Positions 1-14,412 of a stretch of DNA of 64,000 nucleotides are shown here, one piece after another. Made by a program: the position numbers and the translations under genes. Numbering within the stretch: the first letter of the stretch is position 1; the number at the start of each line of letters is the position of its first letter. The notes under the pieces are model-generated. The model had not been told where the DNA came from and did no database searches. It was given only the letters and a program-made list of their open reading frames with translations. Source of the stretch: Dolichospermum sp. DET69 (GTDB lineage: Bacteria > Cyanobacteriota > Cyanobacteriia > Cyanobacteriales > Nostocaceae); assembly GCA_017355425.1 (NCBI GenBank), contig CP070233.1, forward strand, positions 1,280,501 to 1,344,500. The letters run 5' to 3'.

Positions 1-199
1 ATAAACCAAACTGCACTATAAAAGGGACAATAAATCGAAAATCTCGGTATTGAACATTTAATGATGCTAACCATAAACCCGCACCGATAGAAGCAGCAAA
101 GGCAACACCAATAAACAATGGTAAAGTCAAAATCCGCCAACTAGGAACAAAGTTATACCATGCCATTAATGCCAATAAAATTATCCCCGAAATCATAAA
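1..199 (-). pseudogene. ABC-2 type permease, 3' portion (severed by transposon; runs off the window)
   Basis: The minus-strand frame reads as membrane permease sequence (AWYNFVPSWRILTLPLFIGV, then ASIGAGLWLASLNVQYRDF), which matches the second half of an ABC-2 / polysaccharide-export permease such as TagG/KpsM/Wzm. It has no start of its own. Joining it to the 5' portion at 8999-9441, with one copy of the shared ATAAA flank removed, gives a continuous frame (VDF-MISGIILLA). It is therefore the far side of the same gene. The role, export of polysaccharide or polyol phosphate with a separate ATPase subunit, comes from the family. The partner ATPase would lie outside the window. It is almost certainly non-functional here. 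Confidence 0.88.
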
Positions 200-1722
200 C
201 AGTAAACCAAAAAGTTTTTTCCTGAAGGGAGATCGCCAAATACTGTGTAGTATAAAATACTTTTTTATTCCCGATACTCTAATCAGCAGACATAGTATAG
301 ATAATAATTACTTATGATTAGCTGGTTAATAATTTCTTGACGCTAACCGGATGGAATATAAATGCTTTCAACGACTTGATATTTCTTCTGTAGGGCTTGA
401 GATAAAAAGGCTAACATCTGTTTGAGTGTAAAAAGTGTGCGATAAATTAATCTACTACCTTTCCTTTTACGACTGATTTTGAGCCATAGTAGATTCACCC
501 AGATGTTAATTAGAAGAAAGGATATTCCAATGAATAGTAATCTCAAGACTGGATTTTTGTTATTCGTCTTAATTCGACAAATATTTTTCAGACGATAACT
601 GGTTTCAATGCCAAATCTTTTTCGATAATCTTGATAGATATAATTTAAATTTGTTTTGACCTTATAAGCAACATAAACAAAGTATTGAACCCCATGCTTT
701 TTATGCTTTCCCTTTCTATATTTACAGACGATCCATAAATCAAATGTGACAAAATCATCTTTGTCTCTTGTAATAGTATAGGTAGTTTTATAACTTTTTT
801 TACCCTTGAGGAATTGTTTGATTCCTCCTTTTTTTCCAGTCTTGATAGCAGGCATAAGAAAGGGAATATCTAATGCCTGTAACCATCTAATTACAGGAGT
901 ATTAAAAAATCCCCTATCCAAATAGAGTTTTTTTACATTTATTTTTAGGGATTCAAGTTCTGCTAATAAATAAGTAATTAAAGCCACACTAGTATCTAAT
1001 TGGCGAACACCTCTTATTGCTAGAGTTACACGCTTATTATTACTAATAACATATAAAGTGGCATAGGCATAAAATGAATTAGTACCAGATTTAGCTTCAC
1101 TTCGATATATGTAGGGTAATTCTGACGATGTTGGTTGACCATAATAACAAATTAAATTTAAATCAATCGCTATTTTCAAACACCCTTTTTTTAATCCTAA
1201 AGGAATTCGACTTTTTAATGCTTGATTTATTTGCGCTTCTAATTCCTCAAAATTGTTAATTTTATTGAGATGATATCTAATATCATTAGCTGTCGGAATA
1301 TTTTTTAACAATTTAGCTGTGTTTTCAATACTGTCTCCAGTGCTGGCTGCTTTAACCAGAATCTCGAATAAAGTTTGTTGGTCACAGGCTCCTTGCGTTT
1401 CAATCGAAAAATTTTCTACTAAACACTGAATAACCTCATCAAGAGTTTCTGAGTCGGTTAAAACGAGTTCTTCTGTAGACTCGCCCCGCGTGGCTTTTGT
1501 TAGAGATGAAACAGTCAATTTTTTCAGCCAATATGCTACACACTACTTTCATCATTTCATATTTTGATCCAGTGCAAATTATGATAACTATTTCTTATAT
1601 ATTTGGTATTCTATAGTACATGAGTATCTGTCGTATTTTGTTAGTGATGCCTGCTGCGTCTGTAGCAATAGCGTCAGCACTCCGTAAAAATCACTCTTTG
1701 GGAAAAACTTTTTGGTTTACTG
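200..1722 (-). mobile_element. Insertion sequence, copy A (ISH3/IS4-type)
   Basis: It begins and ends with inverted repeats of about 20 bp (CAGTAAACCAAAAAGTTTTT) and contains one transposase gene. Its length, 1523 bp, equals that of copy B at 7476-8998, and the ends and the encoded protein are identical, so the duplication is recent. The left flank ATAAA and right flank GTTAT differ, so this copy did not arrive at this spot as a simple single insertion. Its right terminal repeat supplies the stop codon of the truncated gene next door. Confidence 0.9.
343..1518 (-). CDS. ISH3/IS4-type DDE transposase (copy A)
   Basis: A 391-aa transposase that would catalyse cut-and-paste movement of the IS. 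Candidate catalytic residues are Asp119 (LKIAIDLN), Asp201 (LYLDRGFF) and Glu305 in a YRKRFGIETSYR motif, the IS4-superfamily Y-(2)-R-(3)-E-(6)-K-like signature. The C-terminus is hydrophobic and then basic. The only plausible start is a TTG codon. In-frame stops upstream exclude an ATG, and weak initiation is common for transposases. The protein is identical to copy B at 7680-8855. The ISH3 assignment rests on the LDRGFF motif, the 5-bp duplication and recollection of the family. IS4 in the wide sense is safer. Confidence 0.9.
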   Translation of the reverse strand: MTVSSLTKATRGESTEELVLTDSETLDEVIQCLVENFSIETQGACDQQTLFEILVKAASTGDSIENTAKLLKNIPTANDIRYHLNKINNFEELEAQINQALKSRIPLGLKKGCLKIAIDLNLICYYGQPTSSELPYIYRSEAKSGTNSFYAYATLYVISNNKRVTLAIRGVRQLDTSVALITYLLAELESLKINVKKLYLDRGFFNTPVIRWLQALDIPFLMPAIKTGKKGGIKQFLKGKKSYKTTYTITRDKDDFVTFDLWIVCKYRKGKHKKHGVQYFVYVAYKVKTNLNYIYQDYRKRFGIETSYRLKNICRIKTNNKNPVLRLLFIGISFLLINIWVNLLWLKISRKRKGSRLIYRTLFTLKQMLAFLSQALQKKYQVVESIYIPSG

Positions 1723-1941
1723 GTTATCAGTTGCCTCTCCCATTTTCCCAGCAATAGCACCTACCCACTGGGGATAATTGGCCTGTGCGTCGGTCAATTT
1801 CTTCCAAACTTTAGGTTTAACAGTGACGCTAATTATCCTTCCATCGCAGTCAATCTCAAATTGTTGCCAACCATTTTCTACAGTCTTAACTTCTGGCAGT
1901 TCGTTGATTTTGATAGTTAGTTCTAATTTTCCTTCAATCAT
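1717..1941 (-). CDS. FinO-like small protein, C-terminus cut by IS copy A
   Basis: A 74-aa product beginning MIEGKLELTIKINELPE, with a basic centre (VTVKPKVWKKL) and YPQWVGAIAGKMG. It resembles the small cyanobacterial proteins I recall being annotated as fertility-inhibition FinO-like, which are RNA-binding and plasmid-associated. The homology is from memory. The stop codon TAA lies inside the IS terminal repeat (CAG-TAA), so the natural C-terminus has been replaced by GEATDNQ-stop at the junction. The gene is probably shortened, and whether it still functions is unknown. Its position beside a plasmid replication gene supports a plasmid origin. Confidence 0.6.
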   Translation of the reverse strand: MIEGKLELTIKINELPEVKTVENGWQQFEIDCDGRIISVTVKPKVWKKLTDAQANYPQWVGAIAGKMGEATDNQ

Positions 1942-2035
1942 AAATACATCCTTATAAATTAGCTGAATTCATTAATCCACACTTTTTACAAAAAAAGGGA
2001 ATAGGGAACAGATAAAAAACTGTGATGGAATTATC

Positions 2036-2410
2036 TCAATCATTTGATTTCAACTTATTCGCTAATTTTTTATCTAATGTTACTAACTCAATTTGATGAT
2101 ACTTAGCTGTAGCCGCAATAATAGAATCTGGTAATTTTGTTTTATGGGTATATCTAAAATTAATAGTTTCGTCCTCAATTTCTGATGTAATTGCTAAATA
2201 GGTCATCTGATTTAATAAAGATTTAATCGCTTCTTTTTCCGTAGAACTTATAGAAGGAAAGCTCAGTAACTCCATCCGAGTTATAGCACTATAAGCACAT
2301 TCATTAACTTTAATCAGCTTGTCTTTTAGCAGATTTAAGATTATTAAATCACGTTGAAACAACCCAATTAAAATATTTGTATCTAACAGATACTTAAGTC
2401 CATTCATCAC
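2036..2410 (-). CDS. VapC-type PIN-domain toxin
   Basis: A 124-aa PIN-domain ribonuclease, the toxin half of a type II toxin-antitoxin pair. The acidic active-site positions are visible: Asp in YLLDTNILIG near the N-terminus, Glu in TRMELL, Asp in LPDSIIAATA and Asp in TLDKKL. It overlaps the upstream antitoxin gene by 17 bp, the usual translationally coupled arrangement. Family members cleave tRNA or rRNA when the antitoxin is lost. Here the pair probably stabilises the plasmid-derived cargo. The start is either of two adjacent ATG codons. Confidence 0.85.
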   Translation of the reverse strand: MMNGLKYLLDTNILIGLFQRDLIILNLLKDKLIKVNECAYSAITRMELLSFPSISSTEKEAIKSLLNQMTYLAITSEIEDETINFRYTHKTKLPDSIIAATAKYHQIELVTLDKKLANKLKSND

Positions 2411-2621
2411 GTAATACTTTTTGTAATTCTAAGGGGTCTTGATTTTTAAATACAGGAAAATCAGGTAAATCATTAACTATATTTACCAATAATTGAGATG
2501 ATTGTTTTTGTCGTTCTACTAACAACATTTTTTTGATAACTTCTTGGACAACCATTTCCATATTAGGCAACTCTAAAAGTTGTTTTCCTAACTCATCAGG
2601 TAACTCTATCACAACTTGCAT
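2394..2621 (-). CDS. Antitoxin partner of the PIN toxin
   Basis: A 75-aa product starting MQVVIELPDELG. I chose this start over a longer in-frame one because AGGAGA lies just upstream (2631-2636), and the longer N-terminus reads as non-conserved. The IELPDELGKQLLEL start is typical of small ribbon-helix-helix or related VapB-like antitoxins in cyanobacteria. The C-terminal half (LPDFPVFKNQDPLELQ) would be the toxin-wrapping tail. The 17-bp overlap with the toxin gene supports the pairing. The exact antitoxin family is not certain. Confidence 0.75.
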   Translation of the reverse strand: MQVVIELPDELGKQLLELPNMEMVVQEVIKKMLLVERQKQSSQLLVNIVNDLPDFPVFKNQDPLELQKVLRDEWT

Positions 2622-2755
2622 AAGTTTTATTCTCCTAAAATGATAGCTCAATTCCAAATTCTTTACAAAATAAACTGATTTTAACATCAGTTACTTTACT
2701 TTGTTGCTAATCATGATCTTGATTATACTGTAATCGAGAACATTTAAAATCTTGT

Positions 2756-5700
2756 CTAGCCTGTGTTTCCCACTTCAATAACCCCATCCCTCCCATCTTT
2801 TACGATAGCTATCTCTACTATTGCTCCAATGAATGCCCCTAGAATGTCTGGTGCTAATTCCCTGGTAATCCTGCTAAATGCCTGATAACCAATAGCTTTA
2901 GCCACTTCTAGCAATCCCTGGACAACTTCTGGAGGCGGGTTATCTTTGATTAGGGGTAAATAGTCATTGACTAAGAATTTTTCATCGTCTGAGAGGTCAG
3001 AAAAATTATTACTACCCCTATATAGAGCTTCTATTAGGACTAGTAATATTTTTTTGAGGGCATTGAACCCACCAAATTTACTAGCAATTTTAGAAATATA
3101 GGGCTGTGATAATTTGCTTATTTTAGCAACGGCTTTTTGTGTACACTTAATTCCTGTATCTATACATTGCTTAAATGCTTCTAATAGATAATATCTGCTT
3201 ACCTGTTCTCTATCACCTGCTGTTGGTGTAATCTCAAAAGCAGTGGTTTTGGTTAAGGTTGCACCGGGGTAATAATCCAGTAGGTAACTCAGATCATCAT
3301 CACTGGTGAGATAAATTGTTAGTGCTTCATCAGGGCGACGGTTTGCTCGTAGTCTTCCTCCCATCTGAATAATCTCTGCTTTTACTAAATGCTCTATATA
3401 CTCCTGAAATTGGGGATTATCTTTACTGGTGTTGTAATCCCCTGTTAAAGTTGCGTATTTAGCCGCTACAGCCCCTATATCCTGATAAGGTGAACCGATA
3501 GCAAATAAAGCATCGTGATTCATATATTTATTAGTACCGCGATTATCCTTAAACCAGTAACCTTCACCATCTTGTTTGTGTTTGAGGTGGTCAATGACTC
3601 CCAAATTTCGATGATTGGATGCTAATGCTGTTTTTGTGGCATCTAATTGTTTAACTTTTGATTCACTTCTGTCTTTACCACATAATCCTAAATCAGTAAT
3701 TTGTACCACTTTTAAATTTGAGTAGTTAGGTAACTTTTCACAGATGACTAAGATTTCACTGGCATCTATTCCTAATTCAAAGGCTACTGTTTTCCGGGTA
3801 GCAGTTGCATCCAGTAAAAACACATTTTGGAATTTACTTAGTACCTCTAATTGCCTGTTGTTTTTTGTGGTAATGATTAACTTGTGATGTTTAATCCTCA
3901 ATGCCCCAGGACTAATATTAGCAATGATTTCTAATAATGGTGTTAACCAATTCACTATTAGGTTATCTAATAATTCATGGGATTCTTGACTTGCTTCTTT
4001 ACCGAATGTATAACGAATATATTTTAAGGTTTTGCGGCTTATTCCCTCTCTTTCACTTGCGTCAATTCCATCTAAGGATACGCTATCAGCAGATTGAAAG
4101 ATACCTTCTAAATCAGGTGATAGCACTTTTAAAGCCTCAATGATATTGGGGATAATTTTATGATCAATGTCTCCAAATATATCCATTACTTGATTGTGAT
4201 TATAACCATAGTAATTTTCTTTATGCTGGGAAGATAAATATTGCTCCAATGGTGAGATAAAATCTTTGATTTGTTCCCAAACTTCTGGTAAATGTCTAGC
4301 AATTTCTCCTAAAGTCTTTTGGTAGTCTGTTAATGATAATTCTGTAGTTTCTACTAGATTAATTTGACGACTAGATTCATCTACAAAAGCTATGGATTTT
4401 TTGGGTATTTCTGATGGTAATGAATTAATATGGCATCTGATTCTATCTTTCATCAGTGCCTCACGCCGATCTCTCCTGAAAGTTGCACCGTTTATTTTAT
4501 CCAATAGATTACCTTCAATATCTACACCTTGACAATTGGCTTTGAATTTACAAGTATGACAAATGGGATTTAATGATGATTCACTATTTGATTCTTGATG
4601 ATAGCCTTTAGATGCTAATTTATGAAATAAAGGTGTTTTGTGACAATTCCCTGGAATATTGGCAGCTTGATTTTTAGGCCAGTTAATGGTGGGATTACCC
4701 AAGGGGGTTAAGTTGTTATCATCTGCATATAGTCCATTATTTCTAACTGGTAAATCAGTGTAGTTTTCTTCTATTGATTTAGTGGTGGGATTGCGGTGTT
4801 CATTGGATATGTACCAGAGTTTATTGACTTTTAACCATTCTGGTATAGTTTCTCCTACAAAGTTGGATTTACCAGCCCCAGCACTGGACATATCTAATAT
4901 ATATTTTTTGCCACTTTGAATAGTTTGATTGTAGGTTTCTAATCTATTAGCAGAATCAAACCATACATCAACATCTAAATTACTCCTAGATGATTGTTTA
5001 AGTGGGATAGATGCTGGTATAGATTGTGGTATATATGCTTCCTTGAGCAGGGTTTCGATAAATAGTTTACATTCCCAATCTTCCCTAGATATTTCCTGAT
5101 TAACAGGTTGTTTTGTTACTGCTAATATGGCATCTATGTATGTATTCAGATGTTCTTTATAAGCTGTCTGAATTTCATTTTCTAGTAGTTGTCTACTGTA
5201 TAATCCATCCGCTATTAAATCAGCGATATCATAGCCATTTGTACTGTCTGGATTTAATCTCTGGGGATTTAATTCAATGTATGGTAATTGTGCTTTATTG
5301 GCTGCTATTCTTAGTCTGTTGGCTTTGTTGTAACCTGCTTTGTCATCGTCGGGATAATATACAATGCCAGCGATATTATGAGATTTTAAGCATTGACAAT
5401 ATTGTTCTAGTTTGTCATCTGTCCACTGTGAACCCTGAAAGGTAGTGGTAACTAAATTTTGTTGTCTAGCAGCATCAGTACATTTTTCTCCTTCAACTAC
5501 GAAGACAAATTGGCCTTGACCATGTTTGATGATTTCTTCTTGATGGTAAACAGGCCAGGGTTTGTCACCAATTCCTTTCACACTGTTACCAAGAATATCC
5601 AGATGGTAAGGAATGGTGAGCTTTTTCTGTTCACCATCTTCTATAAATTCGTATCTAATTACATACTGTGCATCTGAGTATGTATAGATGATTTGTGATC

Positions 5701-6064
5701 CTCTACTGTTATGTTTCTTTTGCGGAATGACACCAGGAGCAGGTAATTTGGCTAATTCAATGTTTTGGGGTAATGGTGCTGGTAACGGATCTGGTTTTTT
5801 GGCAGGGGTAATCTGTTGGTAGTTGATTCTGCCATTGTCAATACCCGCTTGTTTTAAAGCATCTTCTAAGGGATTAACAGCTTCTCGGATATCTTTTAAA
5901 TGCTGTTTGTTGTCAGGTTCTCCCCAACATTGGTACTTACCAGTTTTAATATCTATGGTTAATGAACCTTCACAGACTGGGCAAATATATCTATTTTTGC
6001 CTTTTTTGGGAGTGAGTCTGTCTAGGAAGTTCCTAATATCAAAGGTTTCTAGTATTTTATTCAT
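2756..6064 (-). CDS. Plasmid replication primase-helicase, CyRepA1/DUF3854-like
   Basis: A 1102-aa protein. Residues 28-47 hold a CPVC...YQCW zinc-ribbon like that of DnaG-type primases. Residues 187-241 form a Toprim-like unit (FVVEGEK, then GIVYYPDDDKAGY), as in DUF3854 proteins. Residues 393-400 (SAGAGKS) are a Walker A motif, followed by a CHTCKFKANC cysteine cluster, a Walker B-like IAFVDES and helicase-like segments. The architecture matches what I recall of the CyRepA1 family of cyanobacterial plasmid initiators, so it likely primes and unwinds plasmid DNA. A conserved chromosomal role is unlikely inside a transposon. The frame is intact, with no stops. The plus-strand side (6065-6645) may hold its origin. 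Confidence 0.8.
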   Translation of the reverse strand: MNKILETFDIRNFLDRLTPKKGKNRYICPVCEGSLTIDIKTGKYQCWGEPDNKQHLKDIREAVNPLEDALKQAGIDNGRINYQQITPAKKPDPLPAPLPQNIELAKLPAPGVIPQKKHNSRGSQIIYTYSDAQYVIRYEFIEDGEQKKLTIPYHLDILGNSVKGIGDKPWPVYHQEEIIKHGQGQFVFVVEGEKCTDAARQQNLVTTTFQGSQWTDDKLEQYCQCLKSHNIAGIVYYPDDDKAGYNKANRLRIAANKAQLPYIELNPQRLNPDSTNGYDIADLIADGLYSRQLLENEIQTAYKEHLNTYIDAILAVTKQPVNQEISREDWECKLFIETLLKEAYIPQSIPASIPLKQSSRSNLDVDVWFDSANRLETYNQTIQSGKKYILDMSSAGAGKSNFVGETIPEWLKVNKLWYISNEHRNPTTKSIEENYTDLPVRNNGLYADDNNLTPLGNPTINWPKNQAANIPGNCHKTPLFHKLASKGYHQESNSESSLNPICHTCKFKANCQGVDIEGNLLDKINGATFRRDRREALMKDRIRCHINSLPSEIPKKSIAFVDESSRQINLVETTELSLTDYQKTLGEIARHLPEVWEQIKDFISPLEQYLSSQHKENYYGYNHNQVMDIFGDIDHKIIPNIIEALKVLSPDLEGIFQSADSVSLDGIDASEREGISRKTLKYIRYTFGKEASQESHELLDNLIVNWLTPLLEIIANISPGALRIKHHKLIITTKNNRQLEVLSKFQNVFLLDATATRKTVAFELGIDASEILVICEKLPNYSNLKVVQITDLGLCGKDRSESKVKQLDATKTALASNHRNLGVIDHLKHKQDGEGYWFKDNRGTNKYMNHDALFAIGSPYQDIGAVAAKYATLTGDYNTSKDNPQFQEYIEHLVKAEIIQMGGRLRANRRPDEALTIYLTSDDDLSYLLDYYPGATLTKTTAFEITPTAGDREQVSRYYLLEAFKQCIDTGIKCTQKAVAKISKLSQPYISKIASKFGGFNALKKILLVLIEALYRGSNNFSDLSDDEKFLVNDYLPLIKDNPPPEVVQGLLEVAKAIGYQAFSRITRELAPDILGAFIGAIVEIAIVKDGRDGVIEVGNTG

Positions 6065-6645
6065 GCCACACCCCCACTAATTGCAATGGGTTGGCAAGAA
6101 TTAGAAGAAAAATGTTTACACTTTTGTACTTTGCAGTCTATAATCAAAGGATAAGACTGCCATGAATTAGTTCTCATGGTTCTCGTTTGTTGATCCAGAC
6201 TTCACTTAGGTTAGTTTTCCAGACGTAGACTAAGTAAAAAGCTGGGTTTGCTAATTTTTAGATTTTCTAAGCTCTCAAATTGTTGTCAAGACAGTTTGGG
6301 AGTTTTGATTTATACCTGTAATCAAGGGTTATCATTCTTCAAAGAGCTATAAAGCATGATTGAAAAATTGACTACTGATTACAATCATACTATATCAAAG
6401 AAAACCAATTTCAGGAAAATTTATTTTTACTATTAAAATTTCTTAATCTGTATTGTACGTGTCTAAAAGCTTATGTACATGAGAGTTTTTACTATCCTTT
6501 GGTGATGTCTGCGGCGATCGCTTATTTGTTGGGATGATAGGAGAGCGATCGCATATTTGTTGGGATGATAGGCGATTCCTCATGACAGCTTCGCTATATT
6601 TACCCCTAGATAATAGATTTTGTATAATTGTAGGTGTTATTAATA
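6065..6645. other. Intergenic region between rep and response regulator; possible plasmid origin
   Basis: These 581 bp are AT-rich and separate the divergently read replication gene and response regulator. They contain a near-duplicate of about 35 bp (GCGATCGC followed by WTATTTGTTGGGATGATAG) at 6514-6571, and a similar GCGATCGC...TGTTGGATGAT segment recurs at 7365-7400. I see no coding potential. Its location directly upstream of the replication gene makes it the best place for an origin, but I found no clear iteron array. Confidence 0.35.
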
Positions 6646-7293
6646 ATGAATGAAATTACTATTGTATTAATTGAGGATCATGATTTAACCCGGATGGCAC
6701 TCAAAACTGAATTGCAATCACACACTGGGTTTAAGGTGATTGGTGAAACGGGTAATGCAACTCAGGGACTAAAACTTTTGGAAACACTGAAACCAAATGT
6801 GGCTGTGATAGATATTAATTTACCAGATATAAACGGGATTGAACTGATCCGTAAATTTAAGCGTTATCAGGCAGAAACAGGACAATCACAGGTAAGAATA
6901 TTGATTTTGACGATAAATAATAGTGAAGATGTAGTTTTAGCTGCGTTTGCGACTGGTGCTGATTCTTATTGTATGAAGGAAACAAGTATTAATAAATTTA
7001 CTGAAGCTGTACAAGCAACTGCTAATGGTAACTCTTGGATTGATCCAGCGATCGCTAGTATAGTATTACGAAAAATGCGCCAAGGTGTCCCCGGTGATCA
7101 TCAATTGGAAATAGAATATGAACAAGTTTTAGAAACTTACCCCCTCACCATACGGGAACAGGAAATTTTAGGCTTGATTGTAGCTGGTTGCAGTAATTCA
7201 CAAATTGCGGAGAAATTATATATTACCGTAGGTACAGTCAAAACTCATGTTCGCAATATTTTAAATAAGTTATCCGCTGATGACCGTACCTAA
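6646..7293 (+). CDS. NarL/LuxR-type response regulator with premature stop
   Basis: A 215-aa regulator. The N-terminal receiver domain has an acidic pocket (IEDHD), the phospho-acceptor Asp in AVIDINLPDING and a Lys in YCMKETS. A LuxR-type helix-turn-helix follows (LTIREQEILGLIVAG...VGTVKTHVRNILNKL). The frame stops at SADDRT. Reading through the TAA gives VAVRALCSDLV, the usual tail of this family (DRTQVAVRALRSGLV), so a single CAA-to-TAA change probably removed about ten residues. I chose the ATG at 6646 over an upstream GTG. No histidine kinase is adjacent. The regulator is cargo of the transposon, with unknown targets. Confidence 0.85.
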   Translation: MNEITIVLIEDHDLTRMALKTELQSHTGFKVIGETGNATQGLKLLETLKPNVAVIDINLPDINGIELIRKFKRYQAETGQSQVRILILTINNSEDVVLAAFATGADSYCMKETSINKFTEAVQATANGNSWIDPAIASIVLRKMRQGVPGDHQLEIEYEQVLETYPLTIREQEILGLIVAGCSNSQIAEKLYITVGTVKTHVRNILNKLSADDRT

Positions 7294-7475
7294 GTTGCTG
7301 TGAGGGCTTTATGTTCGGATTTAGTGATGTAGTTAAATAATACCAATAGCTTAATTTCAAATAGCGATCGCTTATCTGTTGGATGATGAGAGAGCGATCG
7401 CTACAGGGTTTACTCTCAATGTTTCTATTACATTATTAGCAAGGGGTACAGGTTTAGTGTCGGGGTTTTAATAAT

Positions 7476-8998
7476 CAGTAAACCAAAAAGTTTTTCCCAA
7501 AGAGTGATTTTTACGGAGTGCTGACGCTATTGCTACAGACGCAGCAGGCATCACTAACAAAATACGACAGATACTCATGTACTATAGAATACCAAATATA
7601 TAAGAAATAGTTATCATAATTTGCACTGGATCAAAATATGAAATGATGAAAGTAGTGTGTAGCATATTGGCTGAAAAAATTGACTGTTTCATCTCTAACA
7701 AAAGCCACGCGGGGCGAGTCTACAGAAGAACTCGTTTTAACCGACTCAGAAACTCTTGATGAGGTTATTCAGTGTTTAGTAGAAAATTTTTCGATTGAAA
7801 CGCAAGGAGCCTGTGACCAACAAACTTTATTCGAGATTCTGGTTAAAGCAGCCAGCACTGGAGACAGTATTGAAAACACAGCTAAATTGTTAAAAAATAT
7901 TCCGACAGCTAATGATATTAGATATCATCTCAATAAAATTAACAATTTTGAGGAATTAGAAGCGCAAATAAATCAAGCATTAAAAAGTCGAATTCCTTTA
8001 GGATTAAAAAAAGGGTGTTTGAAAATAGCGATTGATTTAAATTTAATTTGTTATTATGGTCAACCAACATCGTCAGAATTACCCTACATATATCGAAGTG
8101 AAGCTAAATCTGGTACTAATTCATTTTATGCCTATGCCACTTTATATGTTATTAGTAATAATAAGCGTGTAACTCTAGCAATAAGAGGTGTTCGCCAATT
8201 AGATACTAGTGTGGCTTTAATTACTTATTTATTAGCAGAACTTGAATCCCTAAAAATAAATGTAAAAAAACTCTATTTGGATAGGGGATTTTTTAATACT
8301 CCTGTAATTAGATGGTTACAGGCATTAGATATTCCCTTTCTTATGCCTGCTATCAAGACTGGAAAAAAAGGAGGAATCAAACAATTCCTCAAGGGTAAAA
8401 AAAGTTATAAAACTACCTATACTATTACAAGAGACAAAGATGATTTTGTCACATTTGATTTATGGATCGTCTGTAAATATAGAAAGGGAAAGCATAAAAA
8501 GCATGGGGTTCAATACTTTGTTTATGTTGCTTATAAGGTCAAAACAAATTTAAATTATATCTATCAAGATTATCGAAAAAGATTTGGCATTGAAACCAGT
8601 TATCGTCTGAAAAATATTTGTCGAATTAAGACGAATAACAAAAATCCAGTCTTGAGATTACTATTCATTGGAATATCCTTTCTTCTAATTAACATCTGGG
8701 TGAATCTACTATGGCTCAAAATCAGTCGTAAAAGGAAAGGTAGTAGATTAATTTATCGCACACTTTTTACACTCAAACAGATGTTAGCCTTTTTATCTCA
8801 AGCCCTACAGAAGAAATATCAAGTCGTTGAAAGCATTTATATTCCATCCGGTTAGCGTCAAGAAATTATTAACCAGCTAATCATAAGTAATTATTATCTA
8901 TACTATGTCTGCTGATTAGAGTATCGGGAATAAAAAAGTATTTTATACTACACAGTATTTGGCGATCTCCCTTCAGGAAAAAACTTTTTGGTTTACTG
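7476..8998 (+). mobile_element. Insertion sequence, copy B (ISH3/IS4-type)
   Basis: A second 1523-bp copy, inverted relative to copy A, with the same terminal repeats (CAGTAAACCAAAAAGTTTTT at each end). Its outer flank ATAAA matches the outer flank of copy A, and its inner flank is ATAAT. Identical coding sequence in both copies indicates recent duplication or gene conversion. Confidence 0.9.
7680..8855 (+). CDS. ISH3/IS4-type DDE transposase (copy B)
   Basis: A 391-aa transposase identical in sequence to the product at 343-1518, with Asp119, Asp201 and Glu305 as candidate catalytic residues and a TTG start. It faces toward the outside of the composite element. With two intact identical copies, either can act on the four terminal repeats, so the whole 8.8-kb unit should still be mobile in principle. 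An inverted pair also allows the cargo to flip by homologous recombination. Confidence 0.9.
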   Translation: MTVSSLTKATRGESTEELVLTDSETLDEVIQCLVENFSIETQGACDQQTLFEILVKAASTGDSIENTAKLLKNIPTANDIRYHLNKINNFEELEAQINQALKSRIPLGLKKGCLKIAIDLNLICYYGQPTSSELPYIYRSEAKSGTNSFYAYATLYVISNNKRVTLAIRGVRQLDTSVALITYLLAELESLKINVKKLYLDRGFFNTPVIRWLQALDIPFLMPAIKTGKKGGIKQFLKGKKSYKTTYTITRDKDDFVTFDLWIVCKYRKGKHKKHGVQYFVYVAYKVKTNLNYIYQDYRKRFGIETSYRLKNICRIKTNNKNPVLRLLFIGISFLLINIWVNLLWLKISRKRKGSRLIYRTLFTLKQMLAFLSQALQKKYQVVESIYIPSG

Positions 8999-9441
8999 AT
9001 AAAGTCTACCAAGCTAACTACTACCGCACTTGTCGGCACTACCAACCGAGGAAAATAGACTTTAGAAAGTAAGTTAGCATTACTAATTAAACTATTACTG
9101 CATTCCGAGAGGGAATTAGAAAAAAACTGCCAAGGTAACATGGCGGAAAATACGAGAATTGGATAGGGCGCACCTTCAGATGGTAATTTTGCCAATTGTC
9201 CAAATACTACTGTAAATACTACCATCGTCAGAAAGGGACGAATTAGCGCCCAAATTATCCCAATAGCAGTTTGTTTATAGCGGACTAATATATCTCGCCA
9301 TGCTAGGAAATAAAATAACTCCCGATAACGCCACAAATCTTGCCAATATTGTTTTTCTGTGCGTCCTGATTCAATTATTAGCTCTTGCTGTAAACTGCTT
9401 TTTTTTATCATTTTCGATATCAAATTATCAGTGATTAACAA
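8999..9441 (-). pseudogene. ABC-2 type permease, 5' portion (severed by transposon)
   Basis: The N-terminal 145 or so residues match ABC-2 permeases of polysaccharide/polyol-phosphate exporters: a cytoplasmic start (YWQDLWRYRELFYFLAWRDI), the LVRYKQTAIGIIWALIRPF amphipathic/TM1 motif, and two further TM segments ending at SLVDF. Reading then runs into the IS end and stops after a meaningless tail. The start may be the first ATG or the MIKKSS methionine ten residues in. The 3' half is at 1-199. Neighbouring wzc and wecG-like genes suggest the exporter served cell-surface polysaccharide export. Confidence 0.9.
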
Positions 9442-9479
9442 CTTATTTGATGAAATTTATAGCTATGGTGCATTAGGTA

Positions 9480-9905
9480 TTAATTTGTGAATTTAAAATC
9501 ATTAATCTCTCTATAACCAAGCCTTTTAGATTGTCTGAGTGTGAATTCTCCAACAGAAGGATTGCTATGAGGGTGAATTACACCTGTTGCTTGTTGCCAA
9601 AGTTCTAATGATGCTCGTGATACTATGTAATTTAAGTTATCTTTACGGACATGATACCATTGAGTTTGTTGACAACTATCACACCAAAAAGCCTCTAACC
9701 ATTCACCTTCTAAAGAGACAGTCGTTTTTGCTGCGACTAACATTAAGGCTTCTCGTCTAGGGATACCCCGTTGCTGTAGTTGTCCAGCTTTTTCCGTAAA
9801 TAAAGAGTGTTTTTGGCTGACACTATCCATATAGCAATTATGTATTGGACAGTAGATAGCTCTCCGTTGAGAACGTTTCCGATTTCGATCACACCTTCTT
9901 TGCAT
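9480..9905 (-). CDS. Conserved hypothetical protein with paired Cys motifs
   Basis: A 141-aa basic protein (MQRRCDRNRKRSQRR). I chose this start because AGGAGG sits five bases upstream; a longer in-frame start has no such signal. Two metal-ligand-like pairs are visible, CPIHNC near residue 20 and CDSC near residue 75, which suggests a small zinc-binding fold. I do not recognise the family with certainty. It lies between the disrupted exporter and a Wzc-type gene read on the other strand, so its link to polysaccharide export is positional only. Confidence 0.6.
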   Translation of the reverse strand: MQRRCDRNRKRSQRRAIYCPIHNCYMDSVSQKHSLFTEKAGQLQQRGIPRREALMLVAAKTTVSLEGEWLEAFWCDSCQQTQWYHVRKDNLNYIVSRASLELWQQATGVIHPHSNPSVGEFTLRQSKRLGYREINDFKFTN

Positions 9906-10533
9906 TTTGGCCTCCTGATCATTAACTAAACAACAGATCAAAAGAAGGTTAAGTGGGAGGAACTGAGATCAAAAAGACCATCAAAGATCAACTCCTGTTC
10001 AATATCTAAAGTTATGAAATTTTTTCATTACAATTGACGATAAGTGAGAACAATATACATATCTAGCATTAGTTAGACATATCTAAAATTTAAGTTCTCA
10101 ATTTCACGACAATATTATTCTAAGAGAGTAATATATGTGAATTTAAAAATGTAGGATTGAACTAGATTAAATGGTATTTAAATAGAAAAGTCAATAGCCA
10201 ATTTGCAGTTTTTAGTTAACTTTACATAATCTTTACAATTTTGAATAGAACCATGATAACTACAGTGAAATTATAAATATTTAAAAAAGATATTACTTAT
10301 CTATTGGCCAACTCACAAGCAATATATTCCCAAAAATCACGGCTTACAAAGATTTTGCCAATTTGTCCACTACAACTCATGCAACAGTGTTAGGTTACAA
10401 CTTAGTTGATTTTGCACTTTCTATATTTATGTCAAATTATCCCAATATTCTGGTTATTTTATCAGGATTAAATGTAATTTGGCAATTATGATAATTGAGT
10501 TGAAATTAAATTAAAAAATATATCAGGTTTGAG
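9906..10533. other. AT-rich intergenic region upstream of the Wzc-type gene
   Basis: About 630 bp between divergent genes. It contains several AT-rich stretches and two ATATCTA direct repeats near 10060-10085, but no ORF, tRNA or clear hairpin that I can support. Its length and the divergent genes suggest it holds promoters for both. Confidence 0.4.
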
Positions 10534-12729
10534 ATGAGAAAAAAAAGCTATTCTCAGCAAAGGTTGTCTCAAATAAATGAACATCAGCGTCAACCTAAGT
10601 CTTTTGTTTATACAGTTCAGACTGAAGAAGAGAAGGAAGGAGGATTGAACTTAGGCCAATTATTGGCAGTTATTCACCGGAGAATATTTGTAATTATAAT
10701 TGGAACAACTGCTGTTGCCTCTGCCAGTGTAGGATTAGCTTGGAATAGTCCGCCAATGTATAGTGGTAAATTTGAAATTTTAACCGAACCAATCACCGCT
10801 GAAGATAAAGTAGCACGAGACGACAGATCAAGAACAGATGAGATTGCTAACAAAATTGATGAAACCAAGTTGAAGATCTTACAAAGTCCTAAACTGATGT
10901 CTCCCATTACTCAAAAAGTACAAAAATATTATCCAGATAGCAGCACACCTAAACTTAATATTAAACTTTTACCAAATACTCAAATTGTAGAAGTTACTTA
11001 CCAAGATCCCAACTCTGATAAAGTTTTATTGGTATTAAATAAAGCATCTGAAGCATACCTAAAATATAGTTTAGATGAACGCCAAACAGAAACTAAATTA
11101 GGAATTGAATTTGTTGAACAGCAGGTCCCAAAACTATTAGTGAGAGTAACAAATCTTCAGTTAAGGCTACAAAACTTTTGTCAAAAATATGGAATTATTG
11201 ATGCTCAGGTTCAAGGACAGCAATTGGCTAATCAACTTGATCAAATTGTCCAGAAACGGATAGATAATGAAATACAATTGGCTAGAATTCAAACACTTTA
11301 TACTATTTTGCAAAAACAGTTACAACTAGACTCTAATGAATCAGAGGCTATTTCAGCGTTGAGTGAATCTCCTGATTACCAAAAGCTATTGAGCAAACTT
11401 CAAGATGTAGAATCTACAATTGCCGTAAAATCGTCTCAATATACAGAAAATAGCCCAAATATTCAAAATCTGCTGATTCAAAAACAAAATTTACTGAATT
11501 TAATTCTCAAAGAAAGATCGCAGATTTTGGGAATAAAATTGTCAAATACGAATATGAATTCTTTATATTCAGCCGCACCAAATTCTGCTCGTCTGCGAGA
11601 AATTCAGAAATTTATGGAGACAACTAAGCAAATTGAACTATTGAAAACCCAAAAACAATCTCTTAATCAATCTGAACTTTCTCTGCGGAAGCAAGTTAAA
11701 CAGTTTCCCTTTTTAATCCGCCAAAAAGATGATTTAGAACGACAATTAAAAATTGCTGTTGATAATCTAAATCGTTTTTTAAACGAACGGGAAAGATTAC
11801 GCATAGATGCGGCCCAAAAGCAAATACCTTGGCAGATACTTACTCCTCCTACTCAGCCTGAAAATCTTGCACTAAGTACCGTACAAACTTTAATCTTAGG
11901 AGTGCTTTTAGGGTTATTATTAAGCACAGGATTGGCTTTGCTTATAGATACACTCAACAATGTTTTTTACAATCTTGAAGAAATTAAAGATAAAACTAAA
12001 CTACCAATATTAGGAAATATCCCTAATATTAAATTTAGCCAAAATGGTAAGCTTTCTCAAAGACTTAATCCATCAAATTTTTGGGAATCCTTTCGCTCTA
12101 TTCACACAAATATTTCTCTCCTAAATAGTGATAATTCTATCCGTTCTCTAGCAATTATTTCAGCTACTGCTGGAGATGGTAAATCAACCATTGCTATTTA
12201 CTTAGCTCAGACAGCAGCAGCAATGGGTAAACGGGTGTTATTAGTAGATGCAAATCTGCGTCATCCTAGTATCCACGAAATATTGAATTTACCCAATACG
12301 GAAGGATTAAGCAATCTTATTACTGAAGAACTAAGTTTTGAGGATGTTATCCACAGAAACAGTAGCGGTATCGGTGAAAAAAATGATGATGTGAGGAAAA
12401 AAAATTCAAAAAATATAGAACAATTATCCTTGGGGCATAACTTATCTATCTTAACTACTGGTCAAATTCCCTCCAATCCTACAATTTTACTTTCATCTCC
12501 TCAAATGAAAAATTTGACAGCACAATTTAAACAAAATTTTGACTTAATTATATATGATACATCACATTTATTAGGTTTTGCAGATACTAATCTGCTTACC
12601 AGACATATAGATGCAAGTATTTTAGTTATCAGAATAGGTAAAACAAACCGTTCTTGTTTAGCAAAAGGATTAGAGCAATTAAATTTTTCTTCCACTCCTA
12701 TGTTAGGTGCTATCGCTATTGATTTATAA
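10534..12729 (+). CDS. Wzc-type polysaccharide co-polymerase / tyrosine autokinase
   Basis: A 731-aa inner-membrane protein of exopolysaccharide assembly. A Wzz-type chain-length domain lies between TM1 (about residues 50-70, IFVIIIGTTAVASASVGLAW) and TM2 (about 455-475, ILGVLLGLLLSTGLALLID), with long coiled-coil segments in between. The C-terminal BY-kinase domain has Walker A (SATAGDGKST), Walker A' (VLLVDANLRHP) and Walker B-like LIIYDTS motifs. The C-terminus ends GAIAIDL without the usual tyrosine cluster, so autophosphorylation may differ or fall elsewhere. It is followed after 72 bp by a WecG-type glycosyltransferase, probably co-transcribed. It would control chain length and export of cell-surface polysaccharide. 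Confidence 0.88.
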   Translation: MRKKSYSQQRLSQINEHQRQPKSFVYTVQTEEEKEGGLNLGQLLAVIHRRIFVIIIGTTAVASASVGLAWNSPPMYSGKFEILTEPITAEDKVARDDRSRTDEIANKIDETKLKILQSPKLMSPITQKVQKYYPDSSTPKLNIKLLPNTQIVEVTYQDPNSDKVLLVLNKASEAYLKYSLDERQTETKLGIEFVEQQVPKLLVRVTNLQLRLQNFCQKYGIIDAQVQGQQLANQLDQIVQKRIDNEIQLARIQTLYTILQKQLQLDSNESEAISALSESPDYQKLLSKLQDVESTIAVKSSQYTENSPNIQNLLIQKQNLLNLILKERSQILGIKLSNTNMNSLYSAAPNSARLREIQKFMETTKQIELLKTQKQSLNQSELSLRKQVKQFPFLIRQKDDLERQLKIAVDNLNRFLNERERLRIDAAQKQIPWQILTPPTQPENLALSTVQTLILGVLLGLLLSTGLALLIDTLNNVFYNLEEIKDKTKLPILGNIPNIKFSQNGKLSQRLNPSNFWESFRSIHTNISLLNSDNSIRSLAIISATAGDGKSTIAIYLAQTAAAMGKRVLLVDANLRHPSIHEILNLPNTEGLSNLITEELSFEDVIHRNSSGIGEKNDDVRKKNSKNIEQLSLGHNLSILTTGQIPSNPTILLSSPQMKNLTAQFKQNFDLIIYDTSHLLGFADTNLLTRHIDASILVIRIGKTNRSCLAKGLEQLNFSSTPMLGAIAIDL

Positions 12730-12801
12730 GAAAAAATTTACTCAGATTTTAAATATCTGGTGAATATTTTTGCAACTACAACAACATAATCTAAAAAAGA
12801 T

Positions 12802-13653
12802 ATGCTAAACGCAAACAAGGAAATTCCAATTCAAAATCTTACTTCATCCTTAGAATTTGAACCTGCAAAAATTGATATAATTGGCTCTCCTGTAACTGCC
12901 TTACCCTTTGAGGTACAAATCAATATTATTTTAGAATGGGCTATGAATAAAGTCAGCAAAGTTATTTGTGTGGCTAATACTCATATGCTAGTAGAATCTT
13001 ATTGGCAGCCTGAATTTTCTTCTGTTTTAAAGAATGCAGATATTGTTACTCCTGATGGGATGCCACTGGTTTGGATGTTAAAATTAATGGGTGCTGGTAC
13101 TCAAAACCGCGTTGCTGGTATGGATATTCTTTTATCTTTGTGTAAATTAGCTCCACTAAGAGATATTCATCTTTTTTTCTTAGGTGCTAATCCAATAACT
13201 TTAGCCCAAATGAGAAAGAATTTAGCACAGTTTTTTCCGAATGTGACAATTGCTGGAATGGAGCCTTTACCATTCCGTCCACTCACACCTAAAGAGGATG
13301 AAGCTATTATTAAAAAAATTCACGATAGTGGAGCAGGAATAGTTTTAGTAGCTCTAGGATGTCCAAAACAAGAGTTTTGGATGGATCAACACAAAGACAA
13401 AATTCAGGCTGTCATGATTGGTTTGGGGGGAGCATTTTCTGTTTTTGCAGATACTCACAAAAGAGCGCCCTATTGGCTACGTCATTTAGGAGCGGAGTGG
13501 TTATATCGTCTGATTCAAGAACCATTGAGACTATTCAGTCGCTACGGTACAACTATCCCAGTTTTTATATGGCTGGCTTTAAAGCAATACCTTGGACTCA
13601 AAAAAGAGTGTCAACCACCCATCACTTCCCTTCGGGTAAGTGAGGGCTTGTAA
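12802..13653 (+). CDS. WecG/TagA/CpsF family glycosyltransferase
   Basis: A 283-aa GT26-family enzyme that transfers a sugar (often ManNAc-type) from a UDP donor to a lipid-linked intermediate of surface polysaccharide. Typical motifs are present: VANTHMLVES, ADIVTPDGMPLVW (the catalytic-Asp region), RVAGMDI, LFFLGANP, VALGCPKQE and GLGGAFSVFADTHKRAPYW. The last residues (CQPPITSLRVSEGL) look unlike the family and coincide with the start of the downstream omega-RNA-like element. Insertion of that element may have replaced the native C-terminus. It is probably in one transcript with the Wzc-type gene. Confidence 0.88.
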   Translation: MLNANKEIPIQNLTSSLEFEPAKIDIIGSPVTALPFEVQINIILEWAMNKVSKVICVANTHMLVESYWQPEFSSVLKNADIVTPDGMPLVWMLKLMGAGTQNRVAGMDILLSLCKLAPLRDIHLFFLGANPITLAQMRKNLAQFFPNVTIAGMEPLPFRPLTPKEDEAIIKKIHDSGAGIVLVALGCPKQEFWMDQHKDKIQAVMIGLGGAFSVFADTHKRAPYWLRHLGAEWLYRLIQEPLRLFSRYGTTIPVFIWLALKQYLGLKKECQPPITSLRVSEGL

Positions 13654-13654
13654 A

Positions 13655-13875
13655 AGTCTAGTTGACCAGACTCAGTTCTTGACCGAACTACGTTAGAGGT
13701 AAGAGTTAAAGACCTACCAGGGGATGCGTAGCTAGTTCCCTGCTCTAGAACTTTTAAGTTAAACAGGTTTAAGGGTTAAACCAGTGCTTTTAAGATAGTT
13801 ACCGACCTCTAACATTGTCGTTCGCGCCAGCGTGCCGGAGGCATTCAGCTAACATTACCCGAAAGGAGGGACTTC
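13655..13875 (+). ncRNA. HEARO / omega-RNA-like structured RNA upstream of an IscB remnant
   Basis: The roughly 220 bp before an IscB-type start codon are non-coding and rich in potential stems. TTAGAGGT (near 13694) can pair with ACCTCTAA (near 13806), closing a large multi-branch domain. Inside lie AGTTC...GAACT and AACAGGTTT-AGGGTTAAACC-type hairpins, and a strong Shine-Dalgarno (AAAGGAGGG) follows immediately before the ORF. Position, length and architecture match HEARO (omega) RNAs that guide IscB nucleases. Boundaries are approximate, and the 5' guide end may overlap the 3' end of the glycosyltransferase gene. Confidence 0.7.
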
Positions 13876-14237
13876 ATGTCCAAAATATTTGTAATTGACA
13901 CTGACAAACGACCATTAGATCCAATCCATTCAGCACAGACTAGGCAATTCCTAAAAAACAAAAAAGCAGCAATATTTAGACAGTTTCCGTTCACAATTAT
14001 TCTCAAAGAATCGCGTCCTGATTCTCCTGTTTCTCCTTTGAGATTAAAATTCAAACCGGAGACATTGTTAAAGCTGTTGTCATAAAAGGTAAAAAGATTG
14101 GGGCATATATCGGACGAGTAGCAGTGAGAACTAGCGGTAGTTTCAATATCTCAACAGCGTCTGGACTGATTCAAGGCATCTCTCATAAATACTGTAAATC
14201 AATTCACAAAAAGGACGGTTACGAATATGGAAAATAA
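13876..14237 (+). pseudogene. IscB-type RNA-guided nuclease, internally deleted remnant
   Basis: The first about 59 codons (MSKIFVIDTDKRPLDPIHSA...RQFLKNKKAAIFRQFPFTII) are the RRXRR/PLMP-type N-terminus of IscB proteins. After SPLRLK the sequence changes frame and continues as KIQTGDIVKAVVIKGKKIGA...GRVAVRTSGSFNIST...ISHKYCKSIHKKDGYEYGK-stop, which is the IscB C-terminus. About 300 residues, including the split RuvC and the HNH domain, are missing, and the junction is out of frame. The gene cannot make a nuclease. The open frame as it stands gives only 69 aa. The neighbouring RNA may still be transcribed. Confidence 0.85.
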
Positions 14238-14412
14238 AAGATTTGTTAATTGCTCAACTGTCCCTCTCATTGTTTGTGCTGGCGCACAAAATTACTCAAG
14301 GGACGTTTCACAATTAACCCAAATTCCTCCCATCACCAAACTAAGTACAGTTTTGGTGGGGGTCTCCTGGAGGTTTAGATGAAGAGAGAGGGTTGATGTA
14401 GTAGAGTTATAT

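Follow-up and report, generated by a model that had tools for sequence, protein, structure and literature searches.

Composite transposons of the Tn5 and Tn10 type are built from two identical or near-identical inverted insertion sequences (ISs), which move the DNA that lies between them and leave a target duplication only outside the pair. An 8.8-kb unit in the chromosome of the cyanobacterium Dolichospermum sp. DET69 shares this inverted architecture and the outer-only duplication. Unlike Tn5 and Tn10, it has ends of the ISH3 family, and its cargo is a plasmid replication gene (rep) and a toxin–antitoxin pair rather than a resistance gene. The unit occupies positions 200–8998 of the window, the 64,000-nucleotide stretch analyzed here, which corresponds to positions 1280501–1344500 of the larger contig (C1, 5,839,262 bases) of a two-contig genome. 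Its best explanation is the composite transposition of a plasmid segment into a chromosomal permease gene, a reading that is held at a probability of roughly 0.9. The element is of a known kind, carries an unusual cargo, and is well supported.

With respect to the cargo, the closest described systems come from Synechocystis. CyRepX1 and CyRepX2 (Slr6031 and Slr6090) are described as two rep copies on one plasmid, pSYSX, as is also seen on the second contig (C2) of the present genome; the rep product of the unit is 25% identical to them, and its gene differs in being chromosomal and in lying inside a transposon (PMC10899382). The plasmid pSYSA is described as integrating through homologous transposase genes once cyRepA1 is deleted (PMC9978351). 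Both there and here, cyanobacterial plasmid DNA reaches the chromosome via transposase sequences. In the pSYSA case, however, the whole plasmid enters through homologous genes and rep is missing, whereas the present locus holds a 5.7-kb segment with rep that appears to have been transposed. Whole-plasmid integration by homologous recombination, a different case, is the subject described in PMC10100801. None of the literature titles surveyed describes a cyanobacterial replication gene inside a composite transposon, although such a case may exist in print.

The insertion-sequence pair and its target

The unit is bounded by two ISH3-family elements of 1,523 bp each. The left copy (200–1722) lies on the minus strand with its transposase gene at 343–1518, and the right copy (7476–8998) is inverted on the plus strand with its transposase gene at 7680–8855. 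The family is assigned through the transposase, which scores 248.9 bits against the curated NCBIfam model NF033541 (ISH3, cut-off 225). The copies agree at 1,523 of 1,523 bp; the inverted arms as detected measure 1,528 nt, i.e., the IS plus five flanking bases that hold one mismatch. Directly outside the pair, the sequence reads ATAAA at 195–199 and again at 8999–9003, so that the two identical inverted ISs and the outer repeats of the preliminary description are both confirmed. The inner flanks differ (GTTAT at 1723–1727 and ATAAT at 7471–7475). The flanks are ATAAA/GTTAT for the left copy and, read in IS orientation, TTTAT/ATTAT for the right copy, and neither IS has a duplication of its own.

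Elements of the ISH3 family produce short target duplications of 4 to 5 bp. The same genome serves as a control, as it holds 16 identical full-length copies of the IS, every one on C1, in addition to one 94% identical copy and fragments (the best 40 of 67 candidates were scored, and a separate second search returned the same 16). An exact 5-bp duplication is found at 14 of the 14 copies outside the pair, and two 5-mers would match by chance in approximately 1 of 746 cases at the base composition of the window. Since the copies are identical, the IS is probably active. Another genome of the genus (G008) carries three full-length or nearly full-length copies that are 98 to 99% identical, and the IS is therefore not restricted to the present species.

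Both outer ends of the unit are formed by the same IS end, and their first 61 bases agree. This matters for the possibility that a plasmid carrying the IS was integrated by homologous recombination at an IS resident in the permease gene and was then reshaped by deletion and rearrangement, a route that is documented in kind for pSYSA (as described in PMC9978351). A single crossover of this type gives ISs in direct orientation and places one end of each type at the flanks, whereas the ISs found here are inverted, with both outer ends of one type and a shared 5-bp duplication. The shared outer duplication and the common outer end thus fit a pair that transposed together and argue against integration via a resident IS, which is strongly disfavored and very improbable.

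The target is a gene for an ABC-2 permease on the minus strand. Its amino-terminal part lies to the right of the insertion (8999–9441, ABC2_membrane, 29.6 bits), and the part to the left (1–199) runs on past the edge of the window. Homology of the right-hand part to its relatives stops at about 9409–9428 (about 9385 in locus L078). Uninterrupted relatives, for which a search had been suggested, were found in the genus comparison set of 16 genomes, the own genome included. For the empty site, both flanks were fused with a single ATAAA into a query of 206 bp, which crosses the join without a gap in 13 of 13 loci tested. Twelve of them belong to 11 other genomes of the genus and one (L083) is a paralog in the own genome; a fourteenth locus with a 60-bp match (L085) was not part of this test. 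Four of the 16 genomes (G005, G008, G010, and G011) gave no permease match. The fused gene has an open frame of 289 codons from a TTG start to the stop and runs parallel to both intact permeases inspected (L074 and L083), so the in-frame repair that had been claimed for removal of the insert holds. The paralog lies elsewhere on C1, is intact, and is 88% identical to the interrupted copy, whose loss may therefore be tolerable.

The ungapped join also bears on a history in which plasmid DNA had already entered the permease by another route and two ISs were then inserted beside it independently. This genome does hold many insertions of ISs, but separate events should have left a duplication around each IS and some plasmid DNA separating the ISs from the permease. 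Both are missing, and this history has next to no probability. In principle, 16 identical copies also allow mis-joining, and the unit could then be an assembly artefact that arose from collapsed copies. Against this stand an assembly of two contigs, matching duplications at 14 of 14 other copies, and the matching ATAAA, restored frame, and same-type outer ends, which are not expected from a false join; an artefact is extremely unlikely. The outer-only duplication, the control copies, and the ungapped permease all agree with the earlier proposal that the whole 8.8 kb is a single insertion.

Plasmid kinship of the cargo

C2 (200,795 bases) is probably a plasmid, judging from its size and genes. 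The plasmid DNA of the cargo comprises window positions 1723–6576 and 7364–7475, and the former shows 97.4% identity to C2 over 4,859 nt. In part or as a whole, the cargo is also present on pUHCC0315a and pUHCC0315c of Dolichospermum and on pANA02 of Anabaena, where the match is confined to rep and the block upstream of it. All three plasmids share a close rep relative with the cargo, and the stretches compared have neither an IS pair around the module nor the response-regulator block described below. The homology ends precisely at the ISs: Its left edge is exactly 1723 in all three sequences that reach it (C2, pUHCC0315a, and pUHCC0315c), and its right edge is exactly 7475 in three of the four that do so (pUHCC0315a and two contigs of genome G002). 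These matches support the plasmid origin of the cargo, while the expectation that all of 1723–7475 would be found on a plasmid is borne out for 1723–6576 and 7364–7475 and fails for 6577–7363. A search of the whole of C2 with the IS (E up to 1e-3) gave no match. As C2 is free of the IS and about 2.6% divergent, the cargo probably came from a relative of this 200.8-kb contig and not from the contig itself.

At its left end, the cargo starts with a FinO-like gene (1717–1941, minus strand) that is truncated by the left IS to a frame of 74 codons. It is 97 codons long on C2 and pUHCC0315a, and a FinO-like annotation is present in pUHCC0315a and pUHCC0315c, which carry this gene uncut and share the adjacent toxin gene with the cargo. 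The latter (2036–2410, minus strand) encodes a VapC-like PIN-domain protein (58.5 bits, E = 1.3e-15). It is preceded by an antitoxin-like gene of 75 codons (2394–2621, minus strand) that overlaps the vapC start and is assigned by its position alone, as it matches no family. The layout of a PIN toxin with an adjoining upstream antitoxin-like gene is that of VapBC, which makes this a predicted pair with roles assigned by sequence and position. Both proteins are identical to their C2 counterparts. PHROGs gave one weak match, of unknown function, for the PIN-domain protein. On C2, a second copy of the vapBC-like stretch is found at L165:5189–5875 (95.8% over 687 bp).

The stretch without plasmid counterpart (6577–7363, plus strand) is an extra block with a decayed response-regulator gene (frame 6646–7293). 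It splits a repeat array and is missing from all plasmid copies that span the site (C2 twice, pUHCC0315a, and two G002 contigs). The gene is NarL-type, a kind that is found in the 15 other genomes of the genus. Compared with 29 other aligned genes, it lacks 12 residues and ends 13 codons early. It alters 11 of 142 positions that are invariant in 20 orthologs, while three orthologs handled likewise alter 0, 1, and 3 of 149–152 invariant positions. Its ratio of nonsynonymous to synonymous substitution rates (dN/dS) is 0.18–0.21 against four orthologs, compared with 0.08–0.15 between ortholog pairs, which suggests that constraint was weakened, not gone, across its whole history. Recent copying from the chromosomal counterpart in the same genome is rejected, since the two show a synonymous divergence (dS) of 0.42. 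The cargo gene groups weakly with one from G010 (support 0.82). It probably originated in a chromosome of the genus and seems to be a copy that arrived from another Dolichospermum lineage and is decaying. Its divergence greatly exceeds that of the ISs, which are identical, and it is therefore likelier to have entered on the plasmid than after the transposition. The block and the truncated FinO-like gene are features beyond those of the preliminary description.

In the history that we infer, two copies of one ISH3-family element would have entered a Dolichospermum plasmid in opposite orientation, so that they flanked its replication and maintenance region. The transposase would then have taken both outer ends, each formed by the same terminus of the IS, as those of one transposon, and 8.8 kb would have moved into the chromosomal permease gene with duplication of ATAAA. 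Two plasmid insertions and one transposition of the pair would cover everything seen except the extra block. Several points weigh against this history. The donor plasmid was not found among the sequences compared, and the right-hand homology of C2 ends at 7438, before the IS is reached. With the response-regulator block, the cargo is a mosaic, which calls for at least one additional event on the way from the plasmid to the present state, be it before or after the transposition. Finally, the case is read from sequence and speaks to movement, transcription, and replication indirectly.

The replication gene and its upstream region

The main gene of the cargo is a complete plasmid replication gene of the CyRepX type with 1,102 codons (2756–6064, minus strand), which is free of internal stops. 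Residues 387–1078 are homologous to CyRepX1 (E = 2e-48) and CyRepX2 (E = 1e-50), with the 25% identity given above extending over about 735 aa; the amino-terminal part has no CyRepX match. The CyRepX family is described as having helicase motifs, and autonomous replication has been demonstrated for CyRepX1 and CyRepX2; for CyRepX1, it was shown in Synechococcus 7942, where it was abolished by a stop codon after the start while neighboring small frames were dispensable (as described in PMC10899382). Of the term “primase-helicase” used in the preliminary description, the helicase half is thus in keeping with the CyRepX match, and the primase half has weak matches only, which lie under the curated cut-offs. 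Its statement that the cargo holds a complete replication gene and a toxin–antitoxin pair agrees with the unbroken frame and with the PIN toxin and its overlapping antitoxin-like gene.

An assignment of the protein to the CyRepA1 family was rejected. BLASTP against Slr7037 gave a best E of 4.2, which speaks against a relative of CyRepA1. DUF3854 was not detected in the cargo protein (E up to 0.001) or in the Rep proteins of C2, pUHCC0315a, and pANA02 (E up to 0.1). The sole matches in a PDB sequence search were laccases at E = 0.75, which were disregarded, and a single-sequence structure model reached a mean predicted local distance difference test score (pLDDT) of 33.8, too poor to be used for the fold.

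On C2, rep occurs twice (copies a and b, L050:4216–7524 and 10937–14254, different at 34 of 3,267 compared bases), and a third relative is 48% identical. Two places on contig C1 of genome G010 (L055:4785–5636 and a matching part of L056) hold chromosomal carboxy-terminal rep fragments, which adjoin transposase-like frames and genes that are presumably xisH/xisI-like. Their break point, at window position 2785, is that of C2 copy b and nearly that of pANA02. Elsewhere on C1 of the present genome (4118320–4119240, L111), a large frame shows 40% identity to Rep residues 6–293 and is possibly part of another primase-bearing element.

Upstream of rep, a conserved noncoding block (6065–6508, minus strand, limits set by eye in the alignment) is a candidate control or origin region. 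These approximately 440 bp are common to eight of eight aligned sequences, including two contigs from the same genome. The block is followed by two repeat units with a GCGATCGC core (6514–6576), which are candidate iterons. The units of the array are 27 to 31 bp long, and a third one (within 7364–7394) lies beyond the response-regulator block, where plasmid DNA resumes and runs as far as the right IS (7364–7475). A repeat search with up to three mismatches in the 16 genus genomes gave 11 matches, which are confined to two genomes and all lie on contigs with at least the start of rep. Repeats with this core also lie at L092:5852–6326, and the arrays of pUHCC0315a are longer. An obligate role of the array in the origin is not supported, as two of the eight sequences (pUHCC0315c and pANA02) are without it, and it is therefore probably not essential for plasmid life. 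An Rfam scan of window positions 1–10000 at gathering cut-offs gave no match.

In its present location, the module would be a passenger that is replicated passively by the chromosome, with a Rep protein that most likely could still be made and be active. Compared with copy a of C2, rep has a dN/dS of 0.18, and it has evolved under constraint, which may date from before the move. The module might also act on the chromosome through local firing of replication, through Rep supplied in trans to plasmids, or through vapBC stabilizing the region. This agrees with an intact and constrained rep, an intact upstream block, and toxin and antitoxin proteins that are identical to those of C2. The identical ISs, however, make the move look recent, so that constraint may predate the capture, and the changes private to the cargo rep are 9 synonymous and 8 amino-acid-changing (42 and 23, respectively, summed over five other rep copies). 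Activity of the module on the chromosome is rather unlikely.

The unit could move again by transposition. Homologous recombination between inverted repeats inverts the intervening DNA without excising it, so recombination between the two ISs would flip the 5.7 kb of cargo instead of releasing them. The circle joint between 1723 and 7475 that had been suggested is not expected from recombination of the ISs or from transposition at their ends, and restoration of the permease would need precise excision. The earlier suggestion that the unit could leave as a circle bearing its own rep is not supported.

Related loci and meaning

Rep-protein matches are present in at least 108 of 217 family genomes (E of 1e-20 or better, up to three candidates scored per genome). 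Beyond the own locus, five CyRepX-like loci on contigs of at least 1.5 Mb and one (L147) on a 0.43-Mb contig were examined. No repeat pair of more than 200 bp flanks rep in four of the five large-contig loci or in L147, and short arrays stand beside rep in two of the inspected loci without a flanking pair. The fifth, L146, was rejected as a composite transposon, since, by eye, an 8-bp duplication surrounds one of the two IS-like copies around rep while the flanks of the other do not match. The own locus is the sole fit to a composite transposon among the six inspected on contigs of at least 1.5 Mb, itself included. At L146:6116–14982 (genome G028, 3.76-Mb contig), the CyRepX-like gene and its neighbors have, in the unmasked parts, matching stretches of 94 to 99% identity with L149 of a relative (G227:C2, a 146-kb contig), an arrangement for which plasmid integration or misassembly is possible.

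In the present unit, the composite structure with its one duplication is observed, as are the unbroken gene in relatives and the plasmid kinship of the cargo. Together with the CyRepX homology, these features uphold the earlier idea of a route for plasmid replication genes into the chromosome. It represents one clean case in which a plasmid replication region would have reached a cyanobacterial chromosome by composite transposition, with both the plasmid counterpart and the uninterrupted target identified. Chromosomal rep genes of plasmid type, accordingly, need not imply whole-plasmid integration or misassembly. The cargo also points to an upstream block and a repeat array that are tied to rep as candidate parts of an origin. 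The unit might even be a transposable replicon in which active IS ends enclose a working rep, its control region, and the addiction genes, which is a speculative and quite improbable proposal. If true, such a replicon could reside in the chromosome, transpose at some later time to replication-deficient DNA, and turn it into a plasmid, and replicons would be recycled between the chromosome and plasmids.

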